DNA of 46,289 nt from Treponema sp. (GTDB lineage: Bacteria > Spirochaetota > Spirochaetia > Treponematales > Breznakiellaceae): assembly GCA_009788065.1 (NCBI GenBank), contig WQSF01000012.1, positions 1 through 46,289 on the forward strand, read 5' to 3'. Position numbers and translations under genes: made by a program. This document shows positions 748 to 45,362 of the stretch, piece by piece. Position 1 is the stretch's first letter; each line of letters begins with the position of its first letter. The notes below the pieces were generated by a model that ran no database searches, was not told the origin of the DNA, and saw only the letters and a list, made by a program, of their open reading frames with translations.

Positions 748-776
748 TTGACCCTGGTATCACATTATAGTACCAT
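748..776 (+). promoter_or_regulatory. hicAB promoter, predicted leaderless
   Basis: TTGACC (748-753), a 17-base spacer and TACCAT (771-776) form the promoter. Only six bases separate the -10 from the hicA ATG at 783, so transcription should start at or next to the A of ATG. No Shine-Dalgarno sequence is visible. GGTA (756-759) and TACC (771-774) flank the AT-rich core and may be part of a HicB operator. Confidence 0.5.
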
Positions 777-782
777 TTCAAT

Positions 783-1037
783 ATGAACTCTAAGCACAAA
801 AAGACAATGGAGTTAGTTTTTAAGAACCCTACACAAGCTAATATCCTATGGGCAGATATTGAAAGTCTTTTTGCTGCTTTGGGAGGTAAAATATCGGAAG
901 GTTCAGGATCGAGAATACGAATTAAGTTAAATGAATCACGTGCTGTTTTTCACCGTCCTCATCCGCAAAAAACCACCGATAAAGGAGCCGTAAATTCTGT
1001 TCGAAGATTTCTTGAAAATGCGGGGGTACAATTATGA
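783..1037 (+). CDS. hicA: HicA family toxin (mRNA interferase)
   Basis: This 84-residue toxin has the double-stranded RNA-binding-like HicA fold. The sequence is of the subtype starting MNSKHKKTMELVF, with WADIESLFAALGG, then EGSGSRIRI and FHRPHP, and a C-terminal VRRFLENAGV. In the better-known E. coli-type HicA the GSNH segment carries the catalytic His; here the equivalent is GSGSR and the conserved His are in FHRPHP, so the active-site His may differ. HicA cleaves mRNA when not bound by HicB. The gene overlaps hicB by four bases (ATGA), so the two are translationally coupled, toxin first, as is usual for hicAB. Confidence 0.9.
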   Translation: MNSKHKKTMELVFKNPTQANILWADIESLFAALGGKISEGSGSRIRIKLNESRAVFHRPHPQKTTDKGAVNSVRRFLENAGVQL

Positions 1038-1375
1038 TGGAATATAAAGGTTATTTAGGAACTGTAGAATATGACGCACAAGCTCAAATTTTTCATGGAG
1101 ACGTTATTAATACCAGAGATGTTATTACTTTTCAGGGAACAACAGTAAAGGAAATAGAAAAAGCGTTTAAAGATTCAATAAACGATTATATTTCATGGTG
1201 CAAAGAAGAAGGAGTTGAACCTGAGAAACCATACTCAGGTAAATTTAATGTGCGGTTATCGCCGGAGCTTCACAGACAAGTCGCAATATTGGCAAAGAAA
1301 AAACATTTGTCACTTAATAGCTTTGTAGAAAAAGCATTAACCGATGAAATATCCATGTTGCGCGAAGCGTTATAA
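1034..1375 (+). CDS. hicB: HicB family antitoxin
   Basis: This 113-residue protein has two parts. Residues 1-60 form the partial RNase-H-like HicB domain (GYLGTVEYDAQAQIFHGDV, then GTTVKEIEKAFKDSINDY), which binds HicA. Residues ~68-113 form a ribbon-helix-helix DNA-binding domain (GKFNVRLSPELHRQVAILA, then LSLNSFVEKAL), which allows autorepression of the hicAB promoter. Its start overlaps the hicA stop as ATGA; a second ATG at 1037 is possible. Length and domain order match the Arc-type HicB group. Confidence 0.92.
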   Translation: MMEYKGYLGTVEYDAQAQIFHGDVINTRDVITFQGTTVKEIEKAFKDSINDYISWCKEEGVEPEKPYSGKFNVRLSPELHRQVAILAKKKHLSLNSFVEKALTDEISMLREAL

Positions 1376-1386
1376 AACCATAAAAT
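1358..1386 (+). promoter_or_regulatory. Promoter of the orphan response regulator, inside hicB
   Basis: TTGCGC (1358-1363), a 17-base spacer and TAAAAT (1381-1386) end five bases before the ATG at 1392. There is no Shine-Dalgarno sequence. The -35 lies inside the 3' end of hicB, so the regulator can be expressed separately from the toxin-antitoxin module, probably from a leaderless mRNA. Confidence 0.45.
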
Positions 1387-1391
1387 AAGCA

Positions 1392-2000
1392 ATGCAAGTA
1401 TTATTAATCGATGATCACCCAATGCTAAACGCAGGGATTGTTTCTATTCTGGAACAGACAGGCATTTTTAAAGTTTGCGCTCAGGCGCAATCCCTTAAAG
1501 AAGCTATGAGTATCATCGAAAAAACAGATACTCTGCCCTCCCTTATTATTCTTGACATGCTCCTTGGCGAAGATAACGGTCTGGATTTTCTTCCGATGCT
1601 GGAAGAATTTTGCCATAATAAAAAAGTTACCAAACCTCCTGTTCTTGTTTGCTCCGCTCTTGGCGATTCATTTAAAATACAGACGGCTTTAAAATTGGGA
1701 GCTGCAGGATTTTTATCAAAAACAGGCGGCAAAGATGAACTATTAAAAGCTATAGATACGATACTAAGCGGTAAGGTATATATTTCCGGCGAGGTAAATA
1801 TCAAATTAAAAGAAAACTCCTCTGTTTACGCGAAGTTTTCAAAACGGGAGATAGATGTGATTGAATTAATAAAAGAAAATAAATCAAACAAGCAAATTGC
1901 CAATACATTAAATATTAACTTAAGAACCGTAGAAAATTATATTAGTAAAATTTATTTTAAAACCGGTTTTTCAAGCAGAGATGAATTCTTAAAACTGTAA
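1392..2000 (+). CDS. LuxR/NarL-family response regulator, orphan
   Basis: This is a 202-residue two-domain regulator. The receiver (1-~125) has the acidic pair D7/D8, phospho-acceptor D55 (in LIILDML), S88 and K110 (FLSK). The C-terminal LuxR helix-turn-helix (~149-202) starts FSKREIDVIELI and continues with NKQIANTLNINLRTVENYISKIY. No histidine kinase is adjacent; the nearest in the window is at 44661, beside a second regulator of the same build. Its own promoter overlaps the end of hicB. Target genes are unknown. It differs in base composition from the housekeeping block that follows, as do its toxin-antitoxin neighbours. Confidence 0.9.
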   Translation: MQVLLIDDHPMLNAGIVSILEQTGIFKVCAQAQSLKEAMSIIEKTDTLPSLIILDMLLGEDNGLDFLPMLEEFCHNKKVTKPPVLVCSALGDSFKIQTALKLGAAGFLSKTGGKDELLKAIDTILSGKVYISGEVNIKLKENSSVYAKFSKREIDVIELIKENKSNKQIANTLNINLRTVENYISKIYFKTGFSSRDEFLKL

Positions 2001-2055
2001 AATTAACAGCGGCGGCGTTAATACCGCAACGACAGGCAAAAAATATTAAATCTTT

Positions 2056-2928
2056 TTAAAACCCTCTTTCACCCAGAGCTCTTACAATATCCATGTAAAT
2101 ATCGGGGATATGTATTCCAGATATTTTACGTTTTTTAATATCAAGGATTTCTGTGTGTGAAATGTTTTCGTATTTCTTAATGTTGTCGCTCCATCTTGCG
2201 GAAACTTCGCTTACAAGACCGTCGTTATCTCCGCTTACTTTCCTGATAGATAAATAATTATTAAAGTGCGCTATGTCGTCAAAGGCGTTTTTCATTGTGG
2301 TATATACGCTCTGATAAAACACCTGCTCATCCGGTATAATATTTTCGTTAAACACTTTCATATTTTGGGTTGTTAACTCGTAATTAACGCTGTATAAATC
2401 GGGATTAATATCTCCGATGATATGCCCGTAAATTTCAAGCGCTTTTTTAACGGATTTTGTGTGAACAATTTTTTGATGAAAAATTAAATCAGCGAGTTCC
2501 GCGCCGTGATGCGGCGTAGAAATAGTCGTAAGGCTTGCCACTTTGCCGCCGTAGTTGTATTTTTTAATTAAATAACGGGAGTCAAGCCCGCCTTTTGAAT
2601 GAGCAATTATATTAACCTTCCCGCTGCGGGTTTCCAATAAAACTTTATCGATTGTATCTTTTAAAAGCTCGGCGTTTGACTCAAAACTGCCCCATGCATC
2701 CGTGTTTCCCAAAAATATTTTAATGCCGTTTTCGGCAAAAGTTTCGGGGATTCTTCCCCAAAAATTAATAATGCTTTCTCTGTCATGAGCAATAATCCCA
2801 TGAACAAGTATAATGGGATATTTTAGAATTGGTTTATTTTCTTCGTTCTTGTTATCAGATTCCTGCGGCAGATTAGAGCAGCATTTAAACAGGGTTGAAA
2901 ATAAAAACAGAATCCGGTTTTTTAACAT
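2056..2928 (-). CDS. Alpha/beta-hydrolase, triacylglycerol lipase-like
   Basis: This 290-residue protein resembles the Pseudomonas/Burkholderia lipase group. It has YPIILVHGIIAHD (oxyanion-hole HG, residues 37-49), a nucleophile elbow AHSKGG with Ser111, STPHHGAELAD (137-147), and NDGLVS with Asp236. The catalytic His is most likely H258 in ISHTEILD, placed like the NHLDEVN block of true lipases. The N terminus (MLKNRILFLFSTLF followed by Cys-Cys) may be a short signal or lipoprotein leader. Its Shine-Dalgarno (AGGAGG) is formed by the last two Arg codons of the upstream methyltransferase gene, eight bases away, so translation is coupled. The substrate is unproven; an esterase role is possible. 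Confidence 0.82.
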   Translation of the reverse strand: MLKNRILFLFSTLFKCCSNLPQESDNKNEENKPILKYPIILVHGIIAHDRESIINFWGRIPETFAENGIKIFLGNTDAWGSFESNAELLKDTIDKVLLETRSGKVNIIAHSKGGLDSRYLIKKYNYGGKVASLTTISTPHHGAELADLIFHQKIVHTKSVKKALEIYGHIIGDINPDLYSVNYELTTQNMKVFNENIIPDEQVFYQSVYTTMKNAFDDIAHFNNYLSIRKVSGDNDGLVSEVSARWSDNIKKYENISHTEILDIKKRKISGIHIPDIYMDIVRALGERGF

Positions 2929-2936
2929 AAAAACAT

Positions 2937-4049
2937 TTACCTCCTGATTAAAAACGCTTTTGGTATTTTCCTGCTTTTAAAGTCCTCATCTGTTATTTTA
3001 TTATCTAAATCAATTACTTGTAAATCCTTCTGCGAAGATTTTGAGCGCAGTTGCGCATCCAATTCCTGAGCAGAAAAAGCGCCTCGGCGGACATTCACGC
3101 TGACAAACATTTTCCCGTCCGCCCGAAGAAGCTCAAGACATTTTACAAGCAAATCTGTTATATCTCTGTTTATATCAAAATTATCAGGCATTTTCTTGGA
3201 ATTGGAAAAAGCCGGAGGATCTATCACAATTATATCCCACAATTTTTTCTCAGTTATAGCCTTCCTGACGAACTCTAATACATCATCCCTGATAAGCGTA
3301 TGTTGGTTACGGTCAAGCTCAGAACCGCAGCTCTGCGTCCTTTGCGCGCTTCGCGTCATGGCGGGATATTCTTCTCTTATTCTGTCTGTGTGAATGCCTT
3401 TCTTAGCCAATTTAAATTCAAAACCGTTTAATAAAAAGTTCTCTCCAGCCCAATTTAAATAAGTGTTAGAAAGATCAACAGAATCGGTGGAAGCGGCGCC
3501 TCCCGCCGCCGCATAAACTGAAAAAGCGCCCGTGTATGAAAATAAATTTAAAACATTTTTATTAGCAGACTCGCTGCGTATAACGGCGCGAAGAAGCCGC
3601 CTGTCCGCAAAAAGACCTGTGTCAAGGTAATCGGATAAATTTACCTTAAAAGAAAGACCGCCCTCTTTTATGATTTGCGTAAAACGGGTTTCTCCTATTT
3701 TTTCATACTGCGACAAACCTTTTTGTTTTTGACGCTTTTTTAAAAATACATTTTCATGTTTTATTCCAAGCGCGGCAGAAATGCTTTCCTTCATTGCCGC
3801 GAGCCACAGTGTTTCGTCATTTTCATCTTTTTCATAGGGGCGTTTGTACAGAGCGCCGGAGACGGCGGCTTCTTGCAGCCTGATACAATTGCCGTAGAAA
3901 TCAAGCGCGAGAGGAATTTCCGGTATATCGCGATCATAAAGCCTGAAAACGCCTGCGCCTGTTCTTTGCGCCCATTTTTTAAGGTGTCGAAAACGTTTTT
4001 GCAGACGGTTTGAAAGCATTTGCGCCTGCGAGGCTGTTTTATCATCCAT
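2937..4049 (-). CDS. RlmK-like 23S rRNA methyltransferase
   Basis: This 370-residue, SAM-dependent methyltransferase resembles the C-terminal (RlmK) half of E. coli RlmKL, which makes m7G2069 in 23S rRNA; here it stands alone. The N terminus MLSNRLQKRFRHLKKWA followed by FRLYDRDIPEIPLALDFYG is the RlmK hallmark. The SAM site is LNLFSYTGAFSVYAA, the acidic loop follows (VDLSNTYLNWA), and the catalytic loop is DPPAFSNSKKM. Between NGF and DDVLEF there are about 40 extra residues including MTRSAQRTQSCGSELDRNQ, which includes a short DNA repeat shared with the ABC gene (3331-3347). RlmI (m5C) is the main alternative. No Shine-Dalgarno; the mRNA may be leaderless. Confidence 0.82.
   Translation of the reverse strand: MDDKTASQAQMLSNRLQKRFRHLKKWAQRTGAGVFRLYDRDIPEIPLALDFYGNCIRLQEAAVSGALYKRPYEKDENDETLWLAAMKESISAALGIKHENVFLKKRQKQKGLSQYEKIGETRFTQIIKEGGLSFKVNLSDYLDTGLFADRRLLRAVIRSESANKNVLNLFSYTGAFSVYAAAGGAASTDSVDLSNTYLNWAGENFLLNGFEFKLAKKGIHTDRIREEYPAMTRSAQRTQSCGSELDRNQHTLIRDDVLEFVRKAITEKKLWDIIVIDPPAFSNSKKMPDNFDINRDITDLLVKCLELLRADGKMFVSVNVRRGAFSAQELDAQLRSKSSQKDLQVIDLDNKITDEDFKSRKIPKAFLIRR
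3331..3347. repeat. 17 bp repeat, copy 1, inside the RlmK-like gene
   Basis: CTCTGCGTCCTTTGCGC matches CTCTGCGTTCTCTGCGC at 35963-35979 at 15 of 17 positions, in the same orientation and, like it, within a minus-strand gene. It falls in the extra linker segment of the methyltransferase. Confidence 0.6.
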
Positions 4050-4055
4050 GAATAC

Positions 4056-4064
4056 AGGATAGCA
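4056..4064 (-). promoter_or_regulatory. Extended -10 of the RlmK-like gene
   Basis: On the minus strand the sequence reads TGC-TATCCT, an extended -10 that ends six bases before the start codon at 4049. No -35 match and no Shine-Dalgarno are visible. The divergent radical SAM gene has its own -10 only about 20 bases away. Confidence 0.4.
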
Positions 4065-4082
4065 TATTTTAATTTATTTATT

Positions 4083-4088
4083 TATAGT
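4083..4088 (+). promoter_or_regulatory. -10 element of the radical SAM gene
   Basis: TATAGT ends five bases before the ATG at 4094, with a poor -35 (TAGCAT at 4060-4065, 17-base spacing). This again predicts a very short or absent leader. Confidence 0.35.
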
Positions 4089-4093
4089 AAGTC

Positions 4094-4960
4094 ATGGCAA
4101 TGAACATCACTCCTGTAACAAACCATCGCGAAAGAGAAAAGGGCGTTATTGTGTACCCTGTATATTCCCGCCGCTCGGCAGGTCTTTCAATCGGCGTCAA
4201 TCTTTTTCCTGATAAAAAAAGCTGTCAATTTGACTGCCCTTATTGCGAAGTGTTTCCATTTTCAAGCGGAGCCAAATTCTCTCTTGAACAGATGGAAACT
4301 GATTTACGCGCGGCGATTGATAACGCAAAGAAGGAAAAAATACCTGTCAAAGATATTTGCTTTTCAGGTAACGGCGAGCCTACGCTCTCCCCCGCTTTTG
4401 CCGAAGCGTTTAAGCTGGCGGAAAAAATTTACATGGAAACGCTTGCCGTTTCGGATGCTTCTCCTTCTTCGCGGATTGTTGTGATAACAAACGGAACGGA
4501 ACTTTTACAAACGCACATTTTTAACATGCTTAAAGAAGCCTGCGCCGAAGATGCAAAGCGCGCAACTCCATTCCTTGACATCTGGCTAAAACTGGATGCA
4601 GGTACGCCTGACTGGTATCAAAAGATTAACCGCTGCGCGACAGGTTTTTACGAATTAACAGGAAAAATAAAAGATTTTATTAAATGCGCTCCTGCAACAA
4701 TACAGACAATGCTCTGCGCTGTCGAAGGCATACAGCCTCCGCAGACGGAAGAAAAAGCGTGGGAAGCTCTTGTCTGTAAAATGGCGGAAGACGCCGGAGG
4801 TAATATCCGTAAAGTGCAAATCTACGGTAAAGCGCGCCCCGCTCCAGAAGATCCTTTAGCTTCTTCCCTGCCCGCGCAATACCTTGAAAAACGCGCTGAA
4901 TCATTGCGCGCCGCTTTCGCCGGAATAAATACAACTATCCCTGTTGAAGTATATTTGTAG
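4094..4960 (+). CDS. Radical SAM protein of the TYW1-related COG0731 type
   Basis: This 288-residue protein has the radical SAM cluster motif as CQFDCPYCE (C-x3-C-x2-C) preceded by SIGVNLFPDKK, then the GNGEPTLSP segment that helps bind SAM. These two blocks match the group annotated as wyosine-synthesis-related radical SAM proteins. True TYW1 has an extra flavodoxin or longer domain and belongs to archaea and eukaryotes; bacterial relatives of this size have no established reaction. The gene stands alone, divergent from the rlmK-like gene across 44 bases, so an RNA-modification link is suggestive only. An alternative ATG lies six bases downstream (4100). Confidence 0.8.
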   Translation: MAMNITPVTNHREREKGVIVYPVYSRRSAGLSIGVNLFPDKKSCQFDCPYCEVFPFSSGAKFSLEQMETDLRAAIDNAKKEKIPVKDICFSGNGEPTLSPAFAEAFKLAEKIYMETLAVSDASPSSRIVVITNGTELLQTHIFNMLKEACAEDAKRATPFLDIWLKLDAGTPDWYQKINRCATGFYELTGKIKDFIKCAPATIQTMLCAVEGIQPPQTEEKAWEALVCKMAEDAGGNIRKVQIYGKARPAPEDPLASSLPAQYLEKRAESLRAAFAGINTTIPVEVYL

Positions 4961-5002
4961 AACCGGATACAGTGTATCAATCTTTCCGATTAATCAATTT
5001 TA

Positions 5003-5011
5003 TGATATAAT
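5003..5011 (+). promoter_or_regulatory. gpmI promoter, extended -10
   Basis: TGA-TATAAT is an extended -10 (TGn plus a perfect TATAAT) with only a weak -35 (TTTCCG at 4983-4988). It leaves a leader of about 14 bases containing AAGGAG before the gpmI start, so this gene uses a standard ribosome-binding site. Confidence 0.65.
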
Positions 5012-5031
5012 CACAGCAATAAGGAGTAATT

Positions 5032-6738
5032 ATGGAAACCCTGAAGAAAAACCCTGCATGGAAAAGCCGCAAAGGCCCTGTAGTATTGGTAATAATGGAC
5101 GGTGTCGGTTACGGAGAATATAAAGAAGGCGACGCTGTAGCCAATTCAAAAATGGATAATTTAAACGCTCTAACAGAGCAAAATCCGCATACAAGGCTGA
5201 AAGCGCACGGAAAAGCGGTAGGGCTTCCCACAGACGAGGACATGGGTAACAGCGAAGTCGGGCATAACGCAATGGGCTGCGGACGCGTTTTTAATCAGGG
5301 CGCGGCGCTTGTTTCCGATTCCATCAAGACAGGTGCAATGTTTGAAGGCGCCGCATGGAAGGAAATAATTGCCAACGTTAAAGGCGGCGCGAAATGCGCG
5401 GGATGCCATCAACCCGGCACACTCCACTTTTTAGGGCTCTTTTCTGACGGTAATGTTCACAGCCACCTAGATCATTTAAAAGCGATGATCATACACGCTA
5501 AAAAAGAAAATATTAAACGCGTTAGAATTCATGTATTATTTGACGGCCGCGATGTGGGAAAACTAAGTGCTTTTGATTATATCGATCCGTTCGAAGCGTT
5601 TTTAAAAGAATTAAACGATGAAAACTTTGACGCGAAAATCGGCTCGGGCGGCGGACGGATGTGGATCACTATGGATCGATACGGCGCGGATTGGTCGATG
5701 GTAGATCGAGGCTGGCAGACCCATGTGCTTGGAGCTGCCCGTCAATTTACATCCGCACGGGAAGCTGTTGAAACATACCGCAAAGAAATTCCCGGCATTA
5801 TAGATCAGGATTTAAAAGAATTTGTAATAATCGAAAACGGCAAAGACGGCAAGCCGGCGCCTATCGGCACAATCGAAGACGGCGATTCTGTAATTTATTT
5901 TAATTTCAGAGGAGATCGCGCGCTTGAAATTACAGCCGCGTTTGAAGAAGACAACTTTAACAAGTTTGACCGCAAGAGGAGACCTAAAGTTTGTTACGCC
6001 GGTATTATGGAATACGACGGTGATCTTCATGTTCCAAAACGGTTCCTTGTAAATCCGCCCTCGATTGATCGCACAATGGGTGAATATCTTACGGCAAGCG
6101 GAGTACGCACTCTCGCGATTTCTGAAACGCAAAAATACGGGCATGTTACTTACTTTTTTAACGGTAACCGCACCGGTAAATTCAATGAAAAACTGGAAGA
6201 CTATGTGGAAATAAAAAGCGATGTAATTCCGTTTGAGCAAAAACCTTTAATGAAATGTAAAGAAATTACTGATAAAGTCGTCGAGGCGATAGGTTCAGGC
6301 AAATACGATTTTATCAGATTGAATTTTCCTAACGGCGACATGGTCGGGCACACCGGCGTTTACAACGCGGTAATTGAATCGATGGAAGGCATGGATATTC
6401 AACTTGGAAGAATAAAAGAAGCGGTTGAAAAAGCGGGAGCCGTGATGGTCATCACGGCGGATCACGGCAACAGTGACGATATGTACGAACATAACAAAAA
6501 AAACGGAGAAGTCCTTAGAAAAGAAGACGGGTCGCCGATTACAAAAACAAGCCACAGTCTCAATCCCGTTCCATGCATCGTGTATGATCCTGAATACAAG
6601 GGTGAGTATCAAAACGAACCTAAGGATGCCTGTCTGTCAACAGAACTGGGGATTAGCTCCATCGCGTCAACATGCATACAACTGCTCGGCTTTATTCCGC
6701 CTGATGATTATGACAAACCGGTTTTAAAGTCAAGTTGA
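5032..6738 (+). CDS. gpmI: 2,3-bisphosphoglycerate-independent phosphoglycerate mutase
   Basis: This enzyme interconverts 3- and 2-phosphoglycerate in glycolysis using two Mn ions and a phospho-serine. Residues 17-27 ([11 protein letters not shown]) hold the first metal Asp (D23). [12 protein letters not shown] holds the catalytic Ser74. Further metal and substrate blocks are [26 protein letters not shown] and ADHGNSDDM. At 568 residues it is slightly longer than typical iPGM (~510-550). The start follows AAGGAGTAATT. The gene is followed directly by the arabinose genes; the promoter of the next gene overlaps its stop codon. Confidence 0.96.
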
Positions 6739-6763
6739 GATAAATCGTTTATCAATATATAAT
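6735..6763 (+). promoter_or_regulatory. Arabinose operon promoter with overlapping operator dyad
   Basis: TTGAGA (6735-6740), a 17-base spacer and TATAAT (6758-6763) end six bases before the ATG at 6770. The -35 overlaps the gpmI stop codon. A perfect dyad GATAAA-TCG-TTTATC (6739-6753) fills the spacer and touches the -35, where a bound repressor would block polymerase. With no Shine-Dalgarno present, the mRNA is predicted to begin at the start codon. Confidence 0.65.
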
Positions 6764-6769
6764 CGATCC

Positions 6770-8368
6770 ATGGACCCGAAGAAAAATATAATCGAAGGGA
6801 AAACGTCTCTTGGTATCGAACTTGGCTCCACCCGCATTAAAGCGGTGTTAATAAATGAAGATTTTACCCTTATTGCCGCAGGCGGTTATGATTGGGAAAA
6901 CAGACTGGAAGACGGCATCTGGACATACCATTTGGATGATGTCTGGAAAGGGATTCAATGCTGTTATTTCAACCTTAAAACAGAAGTAAAAAAACTTTAC
7001 GGCATTGATCTTGCACGGGTTGGATCAATCGGCATTTCCGCCATGATGCACGGATACCTTGTCTTTGACAAGAATGAAAAACAGCTCGCGCAGTTTCGCA
7101 CATGGCGCAATACCGCAACTGAAAAAGCGGCAGGTATTCTGACTGACAAATTTAACTTTAATATTCCCCTGCGCTGGAGCATAGCGCACCTTTATCAGGC
7201 AATGTTAAACGAAGAAGCTCATGTAAAAGATATTGAATATATAACTACTCTGGCAGGTTATGTTCATCAAAAACTAACCGGTAAAAAAGTTCTTGGCATA
7301 GGCGACGCTTCAGGAATATTTCCTATTGACAGCGTTACGCAAAACTATGATTTAAAAATGATAGAAATATTTTCTGAAATCGCCTCTCCGTACAATTTTA
7401 GCTGGAAGATTGCCGGTATACTCCCTTCAATTTTAAACGCGGGCGAAGAAGCCGGATCACTCACAGAAGAAGGAGCGCTTCTGCTCTCCCCGGACGCCTC
7501 TCTAAAACCGGGTATTCCATTCTGTCCGCCTGAAGGAGATGCGGGTACCGGCATGATTGCAACTAACACCATAACAGAAAGAACCGGAAACATTTCCGCA
7601 GGAACTTCTATTTTCGCGATGATTGTGCTGGAGAAAAATCTGTCAAAGGTATATCCCGAAATTGATATTGTCACAACCCCGGACGGAAAATCTGTCGCGA
7701 TGGTTCATTGCAACAACTGCGCGTCTGACATTGACGCGTGGATAAAACTTTTTAACGAAGTAATTGAAACAACAGGCGCGAAAACAGACAAGAGCGCCCT
7801 TTACGCCGCACTGTACAGAAAAGCTCTGGAAGCTGACATTGACACAGGCGGTATTTTTTCCTGCAATTACTATTCGGGTGAACCGATTACCGGAATTGAA
7901 GAAGGAAGACCGTTAATCGCGCGGCTTGCCGACAGTAAATTTACGCTTCCCAATTTTATGAGAACTCTGCTATTTTCCGCTTTCGCGACTTTAAAATTAG
8001 GTATGGATATACTTACAGAAAAAGAAAATGTCCGTATAGACAGCCTTCTTGGACACGGCGGTTTGTTTAAAACAAAAGAAACAGGACAGCGTCTTATGGC
8101 AGCGGCTTTAAATACGCCTGTCTCTGTTATGGAAAACTCCGCGGCGGAAGGCGGCGCGTGGGGGATCGCCCTGCTTGCTTCATACATCCTGCAAAAACCG
8201 CAAGGCGTTTGTACTCTTGAACAATTTTTAGCTGAAAAAGTTTTTGCGGACGTTTCCACGATAAATGTTAAGCCTGACGCAAGAGACAGAGAAAGTTTTA
8301 ACATATTTATGCAGCGCTACGCCGCAGGGCTTAATATAGAAAAAGCGGCTATAGAAAATTTAAATTAA
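6770..8368 (+). CDS. FGGY-family sugar kinase, probable L-ribulokinase
   Basis: This 532-residue FGGY kinase opens with the ATP-binding phosphate-1 motif [16 protein letters not shown], has the substrate-contact segment [11 protein letters not shown] and TWRNT, an adenosine-site block [12 protein letters not shown], and a C-terminal [14 protein letters not shown] block. The family phosphorylates sugars such as xylulose, ribulose and fuculose. Lying just upstream of araA and araD, it most likely makes L-ribulose 5-phosphate, though it does not look like the canonical long AraB; xylulokinase is the alternative. It is predicted to be translated from a leaderless mRNA and heads a three-gene operon. 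Confidence 0.85.
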
Positions 8369-33617: not shown

Positions 33618-33626
33618 ATTATAACA
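33618..33626 (-). promoter_or_regulatory. Extended -10 promoter of the ompA-like gene
   Basis: On the minus strand TGT-TATAAT ends six bases before the ATG at 33611. The -35 position (TGTTAG) is poor, as expected for an extended -10 promoter. The same nonamer precedes the histidine kinase gene at the same spacing (44646-44654). Confidence 0.6.
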
Positions 33627-35253: not shown

Positions 35254-35254
35254 T

Positions 35255-37978: not shown

Positions 37979-39253
37979 TTGTTCTTCCGAAGCTTGAAAA
38001 GGCAGTTCGTTCTGCGATTCGCTCGCCATTGTCTGGGAAAGCAGGCGGTTTATGATACCGGCATTATCAAGAAGACTAGAAACCGATTGATTTTGGTGCA
38101 GACGGGAAATTACATGCGCGAAAAGGCGCGAAATATTGACATTTACATACCATTCGCGGTTTATAACCTCTTCCTGATAGACTGCGTTTGTGCCGATCAT
38201 TCGGTAAAAAAGCCCTTCGTTATACGCTTCGTCAAAATGGGCGATTGCATTCCCAGAAAAAAGAGGCAGGGAAATCGCGCAAATAATCCTGCGCGCGCCG
38301 TTTTCCTTTAAAAGCCTCATACCTTTTATCAATGTGCCGCCCGTTCCAAGAAGATCGTCCGCCATAAAAACGGTTTTTTCTTCCACACTCCCCAAAAGGC
38401 GTATCTGCGAAATATTGGACTGAGTCGCGTCTCTTGCAAGCTTGGAATAATCTCTTTCTTTGTAAAGCAGCGCAAGCGGTTTTTTTAACGAAGAAGCGTA
38501 GAATTTATTACGGTCTACGGCTCCGGTGTCAGGGGAAACAACGACAAAATCATCGTTTAAAATTCCGTCCATTTTGGTTAATGTTTGAATTATCTGATAA
38601 CTTGCGTGAAGATTTTCCAGGCGAACCTTATCAAACGCGTTCATAATGTCCCTGGAATGAATATCCAGCGTAATAATCTGGTTCACACCGAGGCTTTCAA
38701 AGATTTTTCCTATCCTGCTTGCGGTAAGCCCTTCCCTGCCCTTTGCTTTGTGTTGTCTGGCGTACGGGTAATTCGGAATAACAAGGGTGATACGCTCGGC
38801 GCCCGCCTGTCTTACAGCGTCTACAGTGACATAAATTGTCATTAAATGATCGTTTATGGAAAGATTATAAACCACGCCGCCTGAAAATTTGACAGGATAG
38901 TGGTTTTCCACATCCTGAAAGATATAAACATCCTTTCCTCGGATGGATTCTTCGATTTCTGACTTTAATTCTCCGTTTGGAAACATGGTAAATTTGACTG
39001 GAACCTTAAAAGGACCGTTATTCACGCCGTTTCCGCTCTGGGAACCGCTTCCGCGCGTTACGATTTTATTAATCAGGTCGATTTGAAGATCCGCCTGATC
39101 TTCCGTAAGATTGTAGTGTTTGCATAATTCTTCCACCATTTGCTTTCTGCTATGGCGGTATTTATGGGCAAGATGCTTGATAACTTCATTGGCGAAGGTT
39201 TCCCCGCCGGGACAGGCAATGATGGCAAGATTGGCAGGATTTAAATACTTCAT
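37976..39253 (-). CDS. prs: Ribose-phosphate pyrophosphokinase, long form
   Basis: This enzyme makes PRPP from ribose 5-phosphate and ATP for nucleotide, His and Trp synthesis. Conserved blocks include FPNGELKSEIEESIRGKDVYI, NYPYARQHKAKGREG, DIHS (a metal/ATP His), SPDTGAVDR and the PRPP loop MADDLLGTGGT. At 425 residues it is about 100 longer than the usual ~315. Some of the excess is an insertion near residues 25-90 (KYRHSRKQMVEELCKHYN and on), between the first strand and the NGE motif; the C terminus is extended too. A promoter lies at 39266-39294. Confidence 0.93.
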   Translation of the reverse strand: MKYLNPANLAIIACPGGETFANEVIKHLAHKYRHSRKQMVEELCKHYNLTEDQADLQIDLINKIVTRGSGSQSGNGVNNGPFKVPVKFTMFPNGELKSEIEESIRGKDVYIFQDVENHYPVKFSGGVVYNLSINDHLMTIYVTVDAVRQAGAERITLVIPNYPYARQHKAKGREGLTASRIGKIFESLGVNQIITLDIHSRDIMNAFDKVRLENLHASYQIIQTLTKMDGILNDDFVVVSPDTGAVDRNKFYASSLKKPLALLYKERDYSKLARDATQSNISQIRLLGSVEEKTVFMADDLLGTGGTLIKGMRLLKENGARRIICAISLPLFSGNAIAHFDEAYNEGLFYRMIGTNAVYQEEVINREWYVNVNISRLFAHVISRLHQNQSVSSLLDNAGIINRLLSQTMASESQNELPFQASEEQ

Positions 39254-39265
39254 GATATATATAAT

Positions 39266-39294
39266 GTAATAGTATAAATCGAAAAAATAATCAA
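39266..39294 (-). promoter_or_regulatory. prs promoter
   Basis: On the minus strand TTGATT (39289-39294), a 17-base spacer and TATTAC (39266-39271) end 12 bases before the ATG at 39253. This is the same geometry as the cyclase gene at 24628 and again lacks a Shine-Dalgarno. Confidence 0.45.
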
Positions 39295-39312
39295 TATACC
39301 GGTTTGTCAGGC

Positions 39313-39368
39313 AATTTATGCCTGCGAAGGATCATCGGAAGTCCTGCCGGGGCTTTGCAAGTATAAAC
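39313..39368. repeat. Degenerate copy of the palindromic element
   Basis: GCCTGCGAA at 39320-39328, ATCGG at 39334-39338 and GTCCTG at 39341-39346 align with 29309-29338: 25 of 30 aligned positions match by eye, with one gap. The segment ends GGCTTTGCAAGTATAAA, resembling the right end of the long copy, so it looks like an internally deleted relative. It lies in the prs-39456 intergenic region. Confidence 0.6.
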
Positions 39369-39455
39369 TGTTTTATAAGGCGGACGGGGTTGTAGTATGG
39401 ACGATTTTCTTTCTTTTTATATTATGATAATATTATTATAACAAAGGAAGTACAT

Positions 39456-39671
39456 ATGGATATTGAAAAAATTAAAACAACTATTGAGACTACCAAAACC
39501 GTAGAAAAATTATGGAAAATTGGTGAAAAAATATTTGGAAAAAATGATAATGCCGTATGCGCTGTAACATATCTAATTGAGCGCGCGTATATATTGGGAA
39601 AACAAGATACTGAAAAAAATATTGATACTAAAAGTAAATCCTCGACAATTAATAAAAAGCAGGAGAAATAA
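39456..39671 (+). CDS. Small AT-rich gene, unknown function
   Basis: This predicts a 71-residue protein, start chosen by AAAGGAAG eight bases upstream. The N-terminal ~50 residues could form helices (KIKTTIETTKTVEKLWKIGE, then AVCAVTYLIERAYILGKQ); the C terminus is Lys/Ser/Asp-rich. No domain is recognised. It is more AT-rich than its neighbours and lies next to the degenerate palindromic element, which fits an accessory gene. The AT-rich region before it contains several -10-like sequences, so no single promoter can be chosen. Confidence 0.55.
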   Translation: MDIEKIKTTIETTKTVEKLWKIGEKIFGKNDNAVCAVTYLIERAYILGKQDTEKNIDTKSKSSTINKKQEK

Positions 39672-39714
39672 TATACAATTTATATTATGAACGAGAAGCT
39701 CCTCTAAATGATCC

Positions 39715-41199
39715 TTATTCCGCCCAACCCCGGCTGCGCTCTACGGCTTTATGCCAGTTTTTAATTAAATCGGCGCGTTTTTCGGTTTCCATGGAAGGCG
39801 TAAAGACTGTGTCTTGCTGCCAGCGGCTTTTTATCTCGTTTTGATCCTTCCAGAAATTGATCGTTATTCCGGCAAGGCAGGCGGCGCCCAAAGCGGTAGT
39901 TTCTCTGACTACAGGGCGGATTATATCCGCGCCGCAAATATCGGATTGGAACTGCATAAGAAATTTATCCCTGCTTGCGCCGCCGTCAACTTTCAACTCT
40001 GACATTTTTAATTCGATATCTGTCTCCATCGCTTTTAATAAATCCATTACCTGATAGGCGATCGATTCCTGCGCCGCCCTGATAATATGCGCGCGTTTTG
40101 TGCCGCGGGTTATTCCTACAATACAGCCGCGCGCGTACATATCCCAATAAGGCGCGCCTAAACCGGTAAAGGCAGGAACAAGATATACGCCTCCTGTATC
40201 GTCAACTTTACCGGCAATATATTCGCTGTCCGCGCTGTCCGTTAATAAACGCATTTCATCGCGCAGCCACTGGATGACAGCCCCTCCGGTGAAAACCGAA
40301 CCTTCCAAAGCGTAATGAACATTGCTGTCAAAACCCGCGGCGATTGTGGTTATCAAACCGTTTTTACTTTCTACAGCTGTCACGCCTGTGTTCATCAAAA
40401 GGAAACATCCCGTGCCGTAGGTGCATTTTACCTCTCCTTTGTCAAAACAGCATTGACCGAACAGCGCGGCCTGCTGATCTCCCGCGTTACCTGCAATCGG
40501 GATTTCAACGCCGTTAATCACAGCGTTCGCGAATACAGAACCTGACGGCTTTACGTCAGGCAGTACGGCGCGCGGAATGTCCAGAGCTTCCAGCAATTTG
40601 TCATCCCAGTCGAGCTTGTGAATATCAAAAAGCATTGTTCTGCTCGCGTTTGTGTAATCCGTTACATGCGCCGCGCCGTCTGTCAGTTTCCAGATAAGCC
40701 ATGTATCGACAGTGCCGAAAAGTATTTCGCCATTTTTGGCGCGATCGCGCGCTCCTTTCACATTATCTAAAATCCATTTAATTTTTGTCCCGGAAAAATA
40801 AGCGTCTGGAATTAATCCCGTTGTTTTTGTGATGTAATCGCCAAGCCCGTCTTTTCTTAACTGATCGACAATACCGGAAGTTCTTCTGCACTGCCAGACA
40901 ACTGCGTTAAAAACCGGCTGACCTGTATTTTTATCCCAAAGGATTGTTGTTTCCCGCTGGTTTGTAATGCCGATGGCGGCTATATCTCGCGCTTTAATAT
41001 TTTTTTTTGCAAGAATGTCCGTTATCGTATTATACTGAGTGGAAAATATATCCATCGGATCATGTTCAACCCATCCTTCGCGCGGATAAATCTGAGGGAA
41101 TTCTTTTTGTTCCAGCGCGGCAATTTTCTGTTCATGATCAAATAAAATCGCTCTGGAACTTGTCGTCCCCTGATCCAAAGATAAAATATATTTACTCAT
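39715..41199 (-). CDS. glpK: Glycerol kinase
   Basis: This 494-residue FGGY kinase phosphorylates glycerol to sn-glycerol 3-phosphate. The N terminus [18 protein letters not shown], the substrate blocks [13 protein letters not shown] and VVWQCRRT, the ATP-site [11 protein letters not shown] and [11 protein letters not shown], and the C-terminal [18 protein letters not shown] are all classic glycerol kinase. It follows a methyltransferase gene by 22 bases but has its own predicted leaderless promoter with a palindrome in it. No glpF or glpD is in the window. Confidence 0.97.
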
Positions 41200-41200
41200 T

Positions 41201-41234
41201 CGCTAATAATAGCGCGCGTTTTTATTTTCTGCAA
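41201..41234 (-). promoter_or_regulatory. glpK promoter with dyad
   Basis: On the minus strand TTGCAG (41229-41234), a 17-base spacer and TATTAT (41206-41211) end six bases before the ATG at 41199. CGCTA-ATAA-TAGCG (41201-41214) is a dyad covering the -10 and the predicted transcription start, and may be an operator for a glycerol regulator. Confidence 0.5.
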
Positions 41235-42004
41235 ACTGCGATAAGTTTGTTTGCGCACTGGTCGTACGGGCTTTCGTCCCAGTCGCCGTAAATATTGATG
41301 TTTTTAAAACCGGCTTTTTGCAATAACGCGCGCAGTTCAGACGCGCTGTACAGTCTTTGAACGAAAATCTTTTCCAGTCTTTTATTATCTTTTATAATAA
41401 TCCAGCGATTCTTAAGAAATGTCCATGAATCAACAGGTTCGTATTCCGTCAGCAATGTGGCGCCGGCGCGTTCAAACCATTCGGCTTCGATAAAATCACG
41501 TACAGCAATTTCTTTTCCAAGCGTTTCAATAATAAAAACGCCGTCTTTTTTTAAAGATTCATACACATTGCATAAAATCTTTAAATCATCGTCCTGATCG
41601 GAAAAATATCCAAAAGAAATATAAAGATTAACTATCGTGTCAAAGTATCCCGGGCGTACAAAATCCCTTGCGTCCGATTTGATATATTCAATGTCAAGTT
41701 TTTCGTATTTTGCGTCTTCTATAGCGGCGTTTAAAAAACTTTCAGTTATATCAACGCCTGTTACAGTAAAGCCCATACGCGCCAGCTCGGAGCTGATCCG
41801 ACCGAGACCGCAGCAAAGATCAAGAACCTTCGGAGCTGCATCCAAAGGTTCTCTCCAGTTTTCTGATGATGTTTCGCCGTAAAGATTAAAATTTGACAGC
41901 CTTGTTACAGCATCGGCGACGGAGGGAACTTCGCTCCAGTGAGCGTCATCAAACATGATGGGGGCGAAATTCTCCCAGAATTCGATATCTTCAAACCAAA
42001 GCAC
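41222..42004 (-). CDS. Class I SAM-dependent methyltransferase
   Basis: This 260-residue protein has a Rossmann methyltransferase core: motif I VLDLCCGLGRISSELARMGF (~75-94), the acidic motif II TGVDIT, motif III SDARDF and a later LLQKAGFKNI segment typical of UbiE/small-molecule methyltransferases. The N-terminal ~60 residues (FWENFAPIMFDDAHWSEV) are Trp/Phe-rich and may bind substrate. It starts with GTG five bases after the small gene upstream, so it is probably co-translated. The substrate is unknown. Confidence 0.8.
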   Translation of the reverse strand: MLWFEDIEFWENFAPIMFDDAHWSEVPSVADAVTRLSNFNLYGETSSENWREPLDAAPKVLDLCCGLGRISSELARMGFTVTGVDITESFLNAAIEDAKYEKLDIEYIKSDARDFVRPGYFDTIVNLYISFGYFSDQDDDLKILCNVYESLKKDGVFIIETLGKEIAVRDFIEAEWFERAGATLLTEYEPVDSWTFLKNRWIIIKDNKRLEKIFVQRLYSASELRALLQKAGFKNINIYGDWDESPYDQCANKLIAVCRK

Positions 42005-42009
42005 GGCTG

Positions 42010-42216
42010 TTAAGCGACAGAGCCTTCTGTCATCGGGTTCAGGTAACCGGTTTGTACGCAGATATTAAAAAGATGCCTTGTAATTGTTTCTTCTGTCGTC
42101 TTAATGCTTCCGTTGTTGTTACGTGTAAAACGAACAAGATATTCGCTGTCCAGCTCTTTTAAAATATCGATGTACTCTGTACATCCCGGCAAACACTTAA
42201 TACTATAACGTTTCAT
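42010..42216 (-). CDS. Small conserved-looking protein, unknown function
   Basis: I place the start at ATG 42216 (68 residues: MKRYSIKCLPGCTEYIDIL, then DSEYLVRFTRNNNG and ETITRHLFNICVQTGYL). A TTG at 42264 is the alternative. The later start fits a promoter (TTGATT-17-CAAAAT, 42255-42283) whose transcription start falls near 42248. It is probably a small alpha/beta protein with three Cys; I do not recognise it. It is co-directional with the methyltransferase gene five bases away. Confidence 0.55.
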   Translation of the reverse strand: MKRYSIKCLPGCTEYIDILKELDSEYLVRFTRNNNGSIKTTEETITRHLFNICVQTGYLNPMTEGSVA

Positions 42217-42247
42217 ACATTTGATATCGGAAAATAATTTGCCCCTC

Positions 42248-42283
42248 TTGAGGAATTTTGCCAATTTAACTAGAATTAATCAA
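42248..42283. promoter_or_regulatory. Overlapping divergent promoters
   Basis: + strand: TTGAGG (42248-42253), 17 bases, TAGAAT (42271-42276), six bases to the cyclase ATG at 42283 (leaderless). - strand: TTGATT (42278-42283), 17 bases, CAAAAT (42255-42260), leading to the small gene at 42216. The two promoters occupy the same DNA, so polymerase can use only one at a time. Confidence 0.55.
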
Positions 42284-43962
42284 TGAAAATACGGTTGAAA
42301 ATGTTCCTTGTGATACTGCCTCTGATCATAGTTCCGCTGGTTCTGGCGGAGGTGTCTTCGTATTTTCAGGCGGTCAACGGAATCACGCGTCTTGCCAGGC
42401 AGCTCCTTGGTTTTAAACTCGGAGAACTTGAAAAATACGCAAATAACCAATGGACGCTTCTGGTTGACAACAATTATGCCGGAAGACCTGAAATGGTGGA
42501 CGCCGCGAAAAAAGCCGTGGAAAATTACGGGCGCAGCATTCTTCTAAGTGATACCGAAATTATTTTCGCTGTAGACAACCGGGGCAGTCTCGCCATGTCA
42601 ACCTCAAACTTAAACCTTCAACCTTCTGAAACGCGGGAGCTTTTGAGCTTTCTCGGCAGGGAAAACCAGGGCTTGCAGACAGCGGTAATAGGCGCGGAAA
42701 AGCGAATTTTTCAATCATTTTATTTTACCCCTTTTGACTGGCATATCTTAATAACCGAAAAAGAGAATGTTTTTTTTGCCGACGCAAAAAAAATTACAAT
42801 ACAGACATTTATTACTCTCGGCGCAGCCGTAATCGCCGCAGCGCTTCTGCTTTTGCTGATAACCCGCCGACTCACAGAGCCGCTAAAACGTATCGCAGGG
42901 TCAATGGATTCCATTATTCAGACTTCCGACTTGTCGGCAAAAGTTGACGTTGAATACAATGACGAAACAGGCGTTCTTGCGCAGACATTCAATAAAATGA
43001 CAGAAGAGCTTGACAGGGCGTATTCCCAGATGAAACGTTATGCGTTTGACGCTGTTCTGTCAGGAAAAAAAGAAGAACGTATACGCCAGATTTTCCAAAA
43101 ATACGTCCCAAACAATGTAATAGAAAAATTTTTCGCCTCGCCTGAAAAAATGCTTGTCGGCGACAACAGAAAACTCGCAATTTTATTTTCAGATATCCGC
43201 TCTTTCACGACAATTTCTGAAGGAATGGCGCCTGATGATTTGGTTAGCTCTCTTAACCGTTATTTCTCAGGGCAGGTGGAAATAATTTACAACAGGAAGG
43301 GAATCGTAGACAAATACATAGGTGACGCGATCATGGCTATATGGGGCGCGCCTGAAAAACATGAAGATGACGCCTTACAGTCTGTGTTTTCCGGTCTTGA
43401 AATGATCGACGCGATTTCTGAATTTAACAATAACCAGCGCCGTCTGGGTAAATGCGAATTTAAAATCGGCGTGGGTATCAACTTCGGCGAAGTAACCGTC
43501 GGCAATATCGGCAGTGAGCGCAAAATGGATTATACGGTAATCGGAGACGCTGTAAACCTCGCGTCGCGCATGGAAGGGCTTACAAAAACATACCATTCCG
43601 ATTTATTAATATCTGAAAGCCTGTTTGAAGAGCTTAGGATTAAAGCGCCGAGCGCGGGTCTCAGTTACCGTCTTCTTGACACTGTCGCCGTAAAAGGTAA
43701 AACAAAAGGCGTTAGAATATTTACTGTTAAAAAAACAGCGTCCCTATCGCCTGCGGAGCAGAAAGCGTGGCAAATACACAATTCGGGAATGAAACTCTAC
43801 TACACTCGTTCATTCGGCGAAGCCGCCGCTAAATTTAAAGAAGTTCTTACGCATTTAAACGGCGACTTTAACGCGGACAATCTTTATAAAAGATGCGCCG
43901 AATACGCATCGTCTCCTCCGCCCGCCGACTGGAACGGCGTGGAAATCATGAAGACGAAGTAG
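42283..43962 (+). CDS. Class III adenylate cyclase with N-terminal sensor and HAMP
   Basis: This 559-residue protein has a membrane helix at ~7-23, an extracytoplasmic domain (~25-170), a second helix (~176-194), HAMP (~195-250), and a class III cyclase domain (~290-460). Metal Asp are D304 (LFSDIRSFT) and D348 (YIGDAIMA); base-selecting residues are K344 and T418 (DYTVIGDAVN), so ATP is the likely substrate; N425 and R429 are present. A C-terminal ~90-residue extension looks TPR-like (MKLYYTRSFGEAAAKFKEVL). It resembles the cyclase at 22757 but is shorter. Its 3' end overlaps the convergent membrane-protein gene by 17 bases. Confidence 0.92.
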   Translation: MKIRLKMFLVILPLIIVPLVLAEVSSYFQAVNGITRLARQLLGFKLGELEKYANNQWTLLVDNNYAGRPEMVDAAKKAVENYGRSILLSDTEIIFAVDNRGSLAMSTSNLNLQPSETRELLSFLGRENQGLQTAVIGAEKRIFQSFYFTPFDWHILITEKENVFFADAKKITIQTFITLGAAVIAAALLLLLITRRLTEPLKRIAGSMDSIIQTSDLSAKVDVEYNDETGVLAQTFNKMTEELDRAYSQMKRYAFDAVLSGKKEERIRQIFQKYVPNNVIEKFFASPEKMLVGDNRKLAILFSDIRSFTTISEGMAPDDLVSSLNRYFSGQVEIIYNRKGIVDKYIGDAIMAIWGAPEKHEDDALQSVFSGLEMIDAISEFNNNQRRLGKCEFKIGVGINFGEVTVGNIGSERKMDYTVIGDAVNLASRMEGLTKTYHSDLLISESLFEELRIKAPSAGLSYRLLDTVAVKGKTKGVRIFTVKKTASLSPAEQKAWQIHNSGMKLYYTRSFGEAAAKFKEVLTHLNGDFNADNLYKRCAEYASSPPPADWNGVEIMKTK

Positions 43963-44626
43963 CTGAAGAAGGTTTTTTAAATTTTTTAATAATCTTTCCG
44001 GCTACCCATGCGATCGTAAAACCGGCGAAAACCGAAATAATTCTATCGATAATATTAATCGGGATGCGGGAAATAATTTCTCTTAAGATAAGCGGAAGAC
44101 CGGAATAAAAACCTGAAGGCTGTGACGCGGGATTAAAAACCGCGCTTCCTTCGGTCTGCGCTCTTAAAATATTAATTAAAAATGAAATAAGCCCGCCCAA
44201 TATGCTCATCGCAAAACACAAAACAAATGAAAGGAGCGTAAGAACAAAAAAATTATTCATAACTTTTTCCAACTGCCGGCTTTTGGAATAATTTAATATA
44301 TCAGAACTTTTTTTATTACCGGAAAAATTCAATTCGACAGGAAAAATTCGGATAAATTTCCATGTTATAACTGCGGTAACAATACTGCAAAGCATGAAAA
44401 GATAACCTTCCCATCCCCAAAAATTGAGCGTATGCCCTGCAATATTTGTAAGAGCACCTGTCAGACAACCCCAAAAAAGCCCGCCGATTAAAGTAACCGC
44501 TATTGTTAAAATTGTATCAAGGTAAAGCGGAAGCCCAATCCCGCTTACGGCAAATATCCTGTTAAGAAATATATTTAAAGCGGCTCCCGCGAAACTGAAA
44601 AAAAGCATTAAAATAATTTTGCGCAT
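43946..44626 (-). CDS. ECF S-component-like membrane protein
   Basis: This 226-residue protein has about five to six helices. The N-terminal FAVSGIGLPLYLDTILTIAVTLIGG, then LFWGCLTGALTNIAGHTL, matches the pattern of ECF S components (small-residue helix, then a second helix with GxxxG-type spacing). There is no EcfT or EcfA gene beside it. It is divergent from the histidine kinase gene, both with leaderless extended -10 promoters. It may be a stand-alone ligand-binding sensor for the kinase, or simply an S component using the ATPase at 35255; neither is shown by sequence. Ser/Lys-rich end. Confidence 0.65.
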   Translation of the reverse strand: MRKIILMLFFSFAGAALNIFLNRIFAVSGIGLPLYLDTILTIAVTLIGGLFWGCLTGALTNIAGHTLNFWGWEGYLFMLCSIVTAVITWKFIRIFPVELNFSGNKKSSDILNYSKSRQLEKVMNNFFVLTLLSFVLCFAMSILGGLISFLINILRAQTEGSAVFNPASQPSGFYSGLPLILREIISRIPINIIDRIISVFAGFTIAWVAGKIIKKFKKPSSATSSS

Positions 44627-44631
44627 ATTAA

Positions 44632-44654
44632 ATTATACCATATCATGTTATAAT
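44632..44654. promoter_or_regulatory. Divergent extended -10 promoters, both predicted leaderless
   Basis: + strand: TGT-TATAAT (44646-44654) ends six bases before the kinase ATG at 44661. - strand: TGG-TATAAT (TATAAT at 44632-44637) ends five bases before the membrane-protein ATG at 44626. The -10 elements are 11 bases apart, so the two genes share one short control region. Confidence 0.6.
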
Positions 44655-44660
44655 TGTGTA

Positions 44661-45362
44661 ATGTACGGAGAAGCTCGTTTTTATTTTGACCTGATGTGGC
44701 TTTTTGTTTTTGTTATAACTTTTCTCATGCTCTTATTGAGTTATCTGTATTTTGCCAAAAGACGCGCGCAGAAGAACGAGCGCCTAAGCCTCGCTTTTTC
44801 TCATCAGGTAATTGAAGGGATGGAAATGGAGCGGCTTCGTATCGCGCGCGAACTCCATGACAGCGTATTGCCGCAGGTTCTTGGAATGTCCGCCGCCGAT
44901 CAGATAAGAACTATCTGCGTAGAAATGATGCCTCCAGATTTTTCGCGTCTTTCATTGAACGATCTGTTCGCCGACATCTGTAATAAATTCGCAAAAAGAA
45001 CAGGATTGGAATGCAGTTGTTTTATTGAAAACGAACTTTTATTTTCAAACCTGAGCGCGGAACACAAGCTCCATCTTTACCGCATGGTTCAGGAATGTTT
45101 TACAAATATAGAAAAACATTCGCGCGCGCATAAAGCTCTGCTTGTCGCAAGGCGTAATAACGGAAATATCCTGATTTGCGTTTCAGATGACGGAGAGGGA
45201 TTTGTCGAAAATTCAAAGAAAGACGGGCTCGGCATGATGAGCCTCAGGCAGAGAGCCGTAATTATAGGCGCAAATATAGATTTTATCAGCGAAAGCCAAA
45301 ACGGGTTTATGGTACGAATTGAATTAATTACCCTTCCCAATATAATTAACGACAGCGAGTAA
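44661..45362 (+). CDS. NarX/DegS-type histidine kinase with no sensor domain
   Basis: This 233-residue kinase has one N-terminal membrane helix (~11-31) and a short charged linker. The HisKA_3 site is RIARELHDSVLPQV with phospho-His H66. The ATPase domain has N149 (QECFTNI), the G1 box DDGEGF and the G2 box DGLGMMSL. There is no periplasmic loop and no PAS or HAMP, so sensing must come from elsewhere, possibly the adjacent S-like protein. The dimerisation segment is about 25-30 residues shorter than in NarX-type kinases. I place the start at 44661; a frame extending to 44619 would overlap the divergent gene. The stop is three bases from the next start. Confidence 0.87.
   Translation: MYGEARFYFDLMWLFVFVITFLMLLLSYLYFAKRRAQKNERLSLAFSHQVIEGMEMERLRIARELHDSVLPQVLGMSAADQIRTICVEMMPPDFSRLSLNDLFADICNKFAKRTGLECSCFIENELLFSNLSAEHKLHLYRMVQECFTNIEKHSRAHKALLVARRNNGNILICVSDDGEGFVENSKKDGLGMMSLRQRAVIIGANIDFISESQNGFMVRIELITLPNIINDSE

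Follow-up and report, generated by a model that had tools for sequence, protein, structure and literature searches.

Leaderless messenger RNAs (mRNAs) are translated by 70S-type, IF2-favoured initiation at a 5′-terminal AUG. The present analysis concerns their predicted occurrence in Treponema sp., and was centred on a stretch of 46,289 nucleotides (the window: GenBank assembly GCA_009788065.1, contig WQSF01000012.1, positions 1 to 46,289), where ten genes carry a -10 promoter hexamer five or six bases before the ATG. The phenomenon as such is known, with measurements in Leptospira and predictions for some spirochaetes. In a differential RNA sequencing (dRNA-seq) report on Leptospira interrogans, the start codon itself is the 5′ end in 184 and 170 genes (at 30 and 37 °C, respectively), and leaders of less than 10 nt were measured for about 440 genes, beside leadered genes (PMC5243855). 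The same report cites leaderless counts of 1174 for Deinococcus deserti and 505 for Mycobacterium tuberculosis. A sequence-based prediction (Zheng 2011, PMC3160421) gives leaderless genes in six of 18 Spirochaetes genomes, with a mean of 3.9% and a range of 1.8–6.9% of genes. In a survey of genes without a Shine-Dalgarno sequence (SD) in 260 prokaryotes, the mean PC3 of the six Spirochaetes included was -3.25, so that under the rule of the figure legend the phylum carries no leaderless mark (PMC5397173).

The treponeme resembles L. interrogans, of the same phylum, in the presence of predicted leaderless genes beside leadered ones, and differs from it in that 5′ ends were measured there and are deduced here from promoter position. 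Besides, canonical sigma-70 -35 and -10 elements are plain in this treponeme, while the Leptospira report describes sigma-54 sites, other motifs not being identified (PMC5243855). D. deserti and M. tuberculosis likewise combine leaderless and SD-led genes genome-wide, although they belong to other phyla and have larger counts, as cited in that report, than the minority share predicted here. The 260-prokaryote survey sought the same promoter-like bias just above non-SD starts as the present work (PMC5397173); since it averaged the whole set of non-SD genes, a leaderless minority may have been masked there. No transcription-start study of a treponeme was found in the literature searched for leaderless mRNAs together with Treponema, Borrelia and other spirochaetes, most subscription journals being outside the search. 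The original prediction fairly remarked that treponemes do not belong to the textbook leaderless groups, but among spirochaetes Leptospira has measured leaderless mRNAs (PMC5243855). Relative to the cited literature, the breadth of the phenomenon, its switching between orthologs and its absence in Borrelia seem to be new.

The main result is that a sizeable minority of the genes of this treponeme very probably have sigma-70 promoters whose +1 coincides with the first base of the start codon, the A, from which leaderless mRNAs are predicted. The genome holding the window (as contig 12) comprises 2,137,078 bases in 98 contigs and is 70% complete. The gene-level analysis covered 1,225,717 bases in 34 contigs, window included, and yielded 934 genes with 80 bases upstream, their starts being taken from a simple home-made gene finder which prefers ATG. 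Genes more than 40 nt from an upstream same-strand gene were considered operon-first (n = 487, 274 without SD and 213 with SD). A hexamer was accepted when it differed from TATAAT at no more than one base, A2 and T6 being fixed. Such a hexamer ended at position -7 in 51 of the 274 operon-first genes without SD, versus 12 and 13 at the neighbouring positions and 0–14 over all 59 remaining positions between -60 and -1. In the remaining classes the hexamer at -7 was found in 9/170 inner genes without SD, 1/213 operon-first genes with SD and 0/277 inner genes with SD. The 61 genes so selected, on the hexamer alone, showed in unselected columns T at -35 (84%), G at -33 (46%), T at -15 (57%) and G at -14 (49%). 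The peak at -7, together with -35 and TG elements at textbook distances, points to the A of the ATG as the +1, in agreement with the geometry proposed in the original prediction. SD tetramers were absent from -18 to -4 in 60 of these 61 genes, the two features being partly exclusive by construction. Their start codons were ATG in 59 cases and GTG in two, which is not distinctive because nearly the whole set starts with ATG (893/934) and the finder prefers it.

Promoters were also scored with a generic sigma-70 matrix, using as null the other upstream positions of the 487 operon-first genes, and scanning leader lengths from -6 to 40 nt. Above the 99% cut of the null there were 35 of the 487 genes (4.9 expected), and above the 95% cut there were 76 (24 expected). 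The excess of about 52 in 487 is a lower bound, since many promoters score under the cut; the hexamer excess alone, also a lower bound, amounts to 4.9% of all genes. In the scan, 91 of the 274 operon-first genes without SD had a site, which in 27 cases gave a leader of exactly 0 (Poisson p ~8e-22 versus uniform placement) and in 56 cases a leader of -1 to +4. Among the 213 operon-first genes with SD, 60 sites were found, only four at leaders of -1 to +4 and 56 at 7 or more, of which 53 at 11 or more; this contrast is partly forced, because SD and TATAAT compete for the same bases (-12 to -7). Altogether, 60 of the 151 operon-first genes with a detectable promoter had it at -1 to +4. Predicted leaders are therefore two-state, near 0 without SD and mostly of 11 nt or more with SD, which agrees with the earlier idea of two initiation modes side by side. 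The leaderless share may be put at between a tenth and two fifths of transcription units.

The best reading of these data is that leaderless transcripts coexist with SD-led ones, in view of the hexamer peak at a single position, the -35 and extended -10 elements at their canonical distances, and the rarity of downstream SD-supported starts (see below). An ordinary sigma-70 promoter would start the mRNA on the A of the start codon, as judged from promoter geometry, and the ribosome would recognise the 5′-terminal AUG directly, while the other genes would be reached through SD leaders, usually of at least 11 bases.

Concerning the window, its promoters are summarized in Table 1. On re-reading the sequence, the ten hexamers described in the original prediction were all located, and so were the five TTG-type -35 elements exactly 17 bases upstream. 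That prediction had missed a TGN above the hexamer in four of the five genes without a TTG -35 (4049-, 33611-, 44626- and 44661); the TGN of an extended -10 is the usual substitute for a -35. The sites are thus distributed as five with -10 and -35, four with -10 plus TGN, and one with the -10 alone. Versus the upstream-position null, seven of the ten had p < 0.025. An SD with a promoter at least 10 bases further up, as would correspond to an SD-led class with short leaders, was not found in nine of the ten genes, and the claimed lack of SD also stood for nine; the borderline case in both respects is 33611-, which has a weak SD-like motif (AGGTG, -18 to -14). Leaders of only 5–6 bases had been proposed for three more genes; the sequence agrees with this for the cyclase 24628- and the AMMECR1 gene (TANNNT at 12 and 11 bases from the ATG, respectively) and disagrees for prs (39253-), where hexamers lie 9, 15 and 17 bases from the ATG.

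Table 1. Elements of the ten putative leaderless promoters of the window (p values versus the upstream-position null)
Gene	Element	Sequence	Coordinates	Strand	Position	p	Remarks
hicA	-35	TTGACC	748..753	+	17 bases above TACCAT		
hicA	-10	TACCAT	771..776	+	6 bases before ATG 783	0.003	HicA_toxin (Pfam)
LuxR-type response regulator	-35	TTGCGC	1358..1363	+	17 bases above -10		
LuxR-type response regulator	-10	TAAAAT	1381..1386	+	5 bases before ATG 1392	0.012	
SAM methyltransferase	-10, extended TGC	TATCCT	4056..4061	-	6 bases before ATG 4049	0.107	not significant; divergent from 4094
Radical SAM	-10	TATAGT	4083..4088	+	5 bases before ATG 4094	0.056	not significant; neither TTG -35 nor extended TG
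FGGY kinase	-35	TTGAGA	6735..6740	+	17 bases above -10		
FGGY kinase	-10	TATAAT	6758..6763	+	6 bases before ATG 6770	0.002	
OmpA-domain protein	-10, extended TGT	TATAAT	33618..33623	-	6 bases before ATG 33611	0.015	
glpK-like (FGGY family)	-10	TATTAT	41206..41211	-	6 bases before ATG 41199	0.023	
glpK-like (FGGY family)	-35	TTGCAG	41229..41234	-	17 bases above -10		
HAMP/adenylate-guanylate cyclase	-35	TTGAGG	42248..42253	+	17 bases above -10		
HAMP/adenylate-guanylate cyclase	-10	TAGAAT	42271..42276	+	6 bases before ATG 42283	0.006	
Gene 44626-	-10, extended TGG	TATAAT	44632..44637	-	5 bases before ATG 44626	0.007	no Pfam match
Histidine kinase	-10, extended TGT	TATAAT	44649..44654	+	6 bases before ATG 44661	0.055	not significant alone

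In the divergent pairs 44626-/44661 and 4049-/4094, the ATGs are 34 and 44 bp apart, respectively, with one -10 per direction in between, so that the upstream part of each promoter lies in or near the opposite gene.

Gene-level work was extended to six other spirochaete genomes (G011, G007, G014, G162, G019 and G027; the own genome is G000). Sites at leaders of -1 to +4, in operon-first genes without versus with SD, were 56/91 versus 4/60 in the own genome, 7/10 versus 0/9 in G011, 10/19 versus 0/9 in G007, 8/12 versus 0/11 in G014, 14/17 versus 0/17 in G162, 9/15 versus 1/18 in G019, and 9/13 versus 0/10 in G027. A control with 150 kb of Escherichia coli gave 0/3 versus 0/8, with the hexamer at -7 in no gene. 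The two-state pattern of the own genome thus recurred in all six spirochaetes and was not seen in E. coli. The strongest signature met was that of G162 (family f1, genus g11), with 42 exact occurrences of TTG-N20-TATAAT-N6-ATG versus one in the reversed control, and 241 of a looser pattern with N6 versus 59 with N9.

The comparison of orthologs indicates both conservation and switching. By eye, the spacing upstream of glpK is near-leaderless in G000, G011, G013 and G005; in G012, G017 and G003 the -10 is followed by a longer leader that bears an SD. For the radical SAM gene 4094, inspection by eye showed the same spacing in the G011 and G013 orthologs and an ambiguous picture in the others. 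The TATAAT-6-ATG of the histidine kinase is conserved in its G002 and G013 orthologs, whose proteins are 65 and 60% identical. In three congeners, 72 start-matched ortholog pairs gave leaderless counterparts for three of five leaderless genes versus two of 43 SD-led genes (Fisher p 0.005, with small numbers).

For whole genomes, counting the hexamer without a -35 was noisy (118 versus 94 in the reversed control; TANAAT 107 at spacing 6 and 69–117 at other spacings), and the -35 was therefore added to the pattern. TTG-N20-TANNNT-N6-ATG was compared with the same pattern with N9 in 392 genomes of the phylum, and with N3 in 22 genomes, the scans not being gene-aware. Counts were summed for 214 genomes of the class (178 non-Borrelia and 36 of the Borrelia-type family f7) and, outside the class, only for families f26 (8) and f30 (29), the other 141 being left unsummed. 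In the class outside Borrelia, N6 totalled 14234 versus 5695 for N9, being higher in 177 of 178 genomes and at least 1.5-fold higher in 169. By family, the counts were 1567 versus 627 in f1 (N6 higher in 17/17 genomes), 7469 versus 3107 in f3 (78/79, G027 being tied), 198 versus 66 in f4 (4/4), 760 versus 251 in f5 (11/11), 1046 versus 261 in f8–f11 (13/13), 1791 versus 760 in f13 (35/35), and 1403 versus 623 in f6, f12 and f14–f22 together (19/19). With respect to the prediction of Zheng 2011, the pattern excess extends to all but one of these genomes instead of six in 18, with about 5% of genes, as a lower bound, in the own genome (PMC3160421). N3 was below N6 in the 16 non-Borrelia genomes of the class tried, e.g. 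13 versus 83 in the own genome, 35 versus 241 in G162, 10 versus 124 in G154, 9 versus 87 in G020 and 3 versus 10 in G027. In 150 kb of E. coli, N6 gave 2 and N3, N9 and N12 gave 0.

The Borrelia-type family showed no excess in this comparison (N6 886 versus N9 949; N6 higher in 15 of 36 genomes, in none by 1.5-fold), nor a consistent one over N3 in the four genomes tried (N3 versus N6: 35 versus 17 in G100, 27 versus 25 in G125, 16 versus 22 in G257, 32 versus 29 in G130). Its assignment follows from the Borrelia_orfA family, present in four of four f7 genomes tried and in none of three others. Outside the class, N6 versus N9 was 583 versus 412 in f26 (ratio 1.42; higher in 7/8 genomes) and 2282 versus 1683 in f30 (24/29). 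Among the unsummed genomes there were examples of excess (G171, 123 versus 28; G187, 111 versus 42; G072, 117 versus 51) and of little or none (G161, 24 versus 17; G204, 67 versus 79). Three genomes titled Treponema gave 105 versus 30, 87 versus 33 and 98 versus 45, and one titled Brevinematales 44 versus 22. A separate observation is that the window protein encoded at 26338-28101- is 60% identical to one of record L027, titled Brevinematales bacterium, and 62% to one of the Treponema metagenome-assembled genome L026; the taxon label of L027 may be wrong. In that protein search, Treponema metagenome-assembled genomes were among the four named relatives (identity 62% at most), and their isolate codes suggest termite guts as the source; calling the present organism a treponeme is therefore reasonable at order level.

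The tied genome, G027 (1.14 Mb), had N6 10, N9 10 and N3 3. Loss of the leaderless class from it was considered and rejected, given the promoter scan above. Since its sites without SD fall at -1 to +4 despite no excess at the exact spacing, the class seems to be present with shifted spacing; four of the thirteen sites are at leader length 3, and G027 possibly has short leaders where its relatives have none.

Several points weigh against leaderless initiation as interpreted here. The contrast between genes with and without SD is partly built in, although the position test within genes without SD is free of that bias. The E. coli control, based on sequence only, consists of 150 kb from one species. 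The excess of the hexamer alone is weak in G007, G014 and G019 (3.5, 1.0 and 0.9% of genes, respectively) and nil to slight in G027 (1/131 genes at -7). Finally, transcripts with a leader could arise in these genes from an undetected promoter further upstream.

The last point leads to the alternative that survives best, namely that the promoter at the ATG is secondary, the main mRNA being leadered from upstream, or that the leader is short (1–5 nt) rather than nil. Leaders of +1, +2, +3 and +4 do exceed the background among the best sites of genes without SD (6, 7, 6 and 3 cases), and the scan reached only leaders of 40 nt; however, the best sites concentrate at exactly 0, and a longer leader would supply no SD tetramer between -18 and -4 in 60 of the 61 peak genes. 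This alternative is improbable, without being negligible.

It is still less probable that start codons were misassigned, so that the promoter is real and the protein begins further down at an SD-led start. The starts come from the home-made gene finder, whose calls coincided with the annotated starts for 83 of the 94 E. coli genes matched and differed for 11, and 47 ortholog pairs of the three congeners were set aside for non-aligned starts, versus 72 kept. In HicA, the Pfam profile spans residues 23–81 of 84, leaving 22 residues ahead of it; such N-termini before the profile are known for HicA. Against misassignment, an in-frame downstream start with AGGA, GGAG or GAGG was found in only 2/87 leaderless candidates versus 30/202 other operon-first genes without SD and 21/213 genes with SD, leaderless candidates account for only two of the 47 pairs set aside, and in 14 of the 23 relatives inspected the GlpK alignment begins at residue 1, where an ATG is present.

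A mere effect of base composition, with AT-rich upstream DNA giving TANNNT everywhere and the well-placed ones being picked, is hardly tenable. The background is indeed high (TANNNT in 3 to 22 of the 274 genes at positions besides -7), and three window sites (4049-, 4094 and 44661), no better than p 0.05, are individually not beyond chance, which also weighs against the leaderless reading. This explanation is nevertheless already contradicted by the peak at a single position, some fourfold above its neighbours, by the -35 and TG at canonical distance, and by an N6/N9 excess of 2.25- to 4-fold in every family group of the class bar the Borrelia-type (0.93). The Borrelia-type group is AT-rich too. 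Equally remote is a translational enhancer, e.g. a site for ribosomal protein S1. S1 binding has been discussed for the AT-rich bias ahead of non-SD genes (PMC5397173), but it would not explain a TTG 17 bases up and a TG one base above TATAAT.

The gene content of the 87 leaderless candidates was also considered. The original prediction supposed a bias to regulatory, catabolic and envelope genes, which was not supported by Pfam tallies of 83 of the 87 proteins versus 83 random ones of the 213 SD-led operon-first genes (first 300 residues): no enrichment of regulators was seen (Response_reg 3 versus 2, HTH_3 2 versus 2), in a test that is coarse because the comparison covered the 25 top-ranking families out of 142 and 124, respectively. 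The candidates include SecA, a gyrase/topoisomerase IV A-type protein, TsaD, two EF-Tu-type GTPases and citrate synthase. They also comprise a gene for a phage portal of lambda type (Phage_portal_2), and prophage genes may use the leaderless mode too. Fifteen candidates are inner genes, with leaderless-type promoters at most 40 nt from the upstream same-strand gene, which suggests promoters inside operons, close to where the preceding gene ends.

Divergent pairs within 60 nt were more frequent among leaderless first genes (12/44) than among SD-led ones (7/91; Fisher p 0.0035). Tight divergent packing was rejected as a leaderless-specific trait, because other first genes without SD were similar (25/105).

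The signal is real and, as far as promoter positions can tell, wider in spirochaetes than the cited papers suggest. A more ambitious proposal, with about equal chances of being right or wrong, is that leaderless initiation is old and general in this spirochaete class, serves about a tenth to two fifths of transcription units in a two-state pattern with SD leaders, has arisen and disappeared in individual genes among close relatives (as in glpK), fits tightly packed divergent genes, and was lost altogether in Borrelia-type genomes. If leaderless initiation is confirmed, leaderless genes should be taken into account when promoters and start codons are annotated in most non-Borrelia spirochaetes of the class, and starts will be misplaced in treponeme expression work built on the assumption of an SD leader. 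Together, the two-state pattern, the switching between orthologs and the absence in Borrelia would form a natural series in which to ask why lineages keep or drop leaderless translation.

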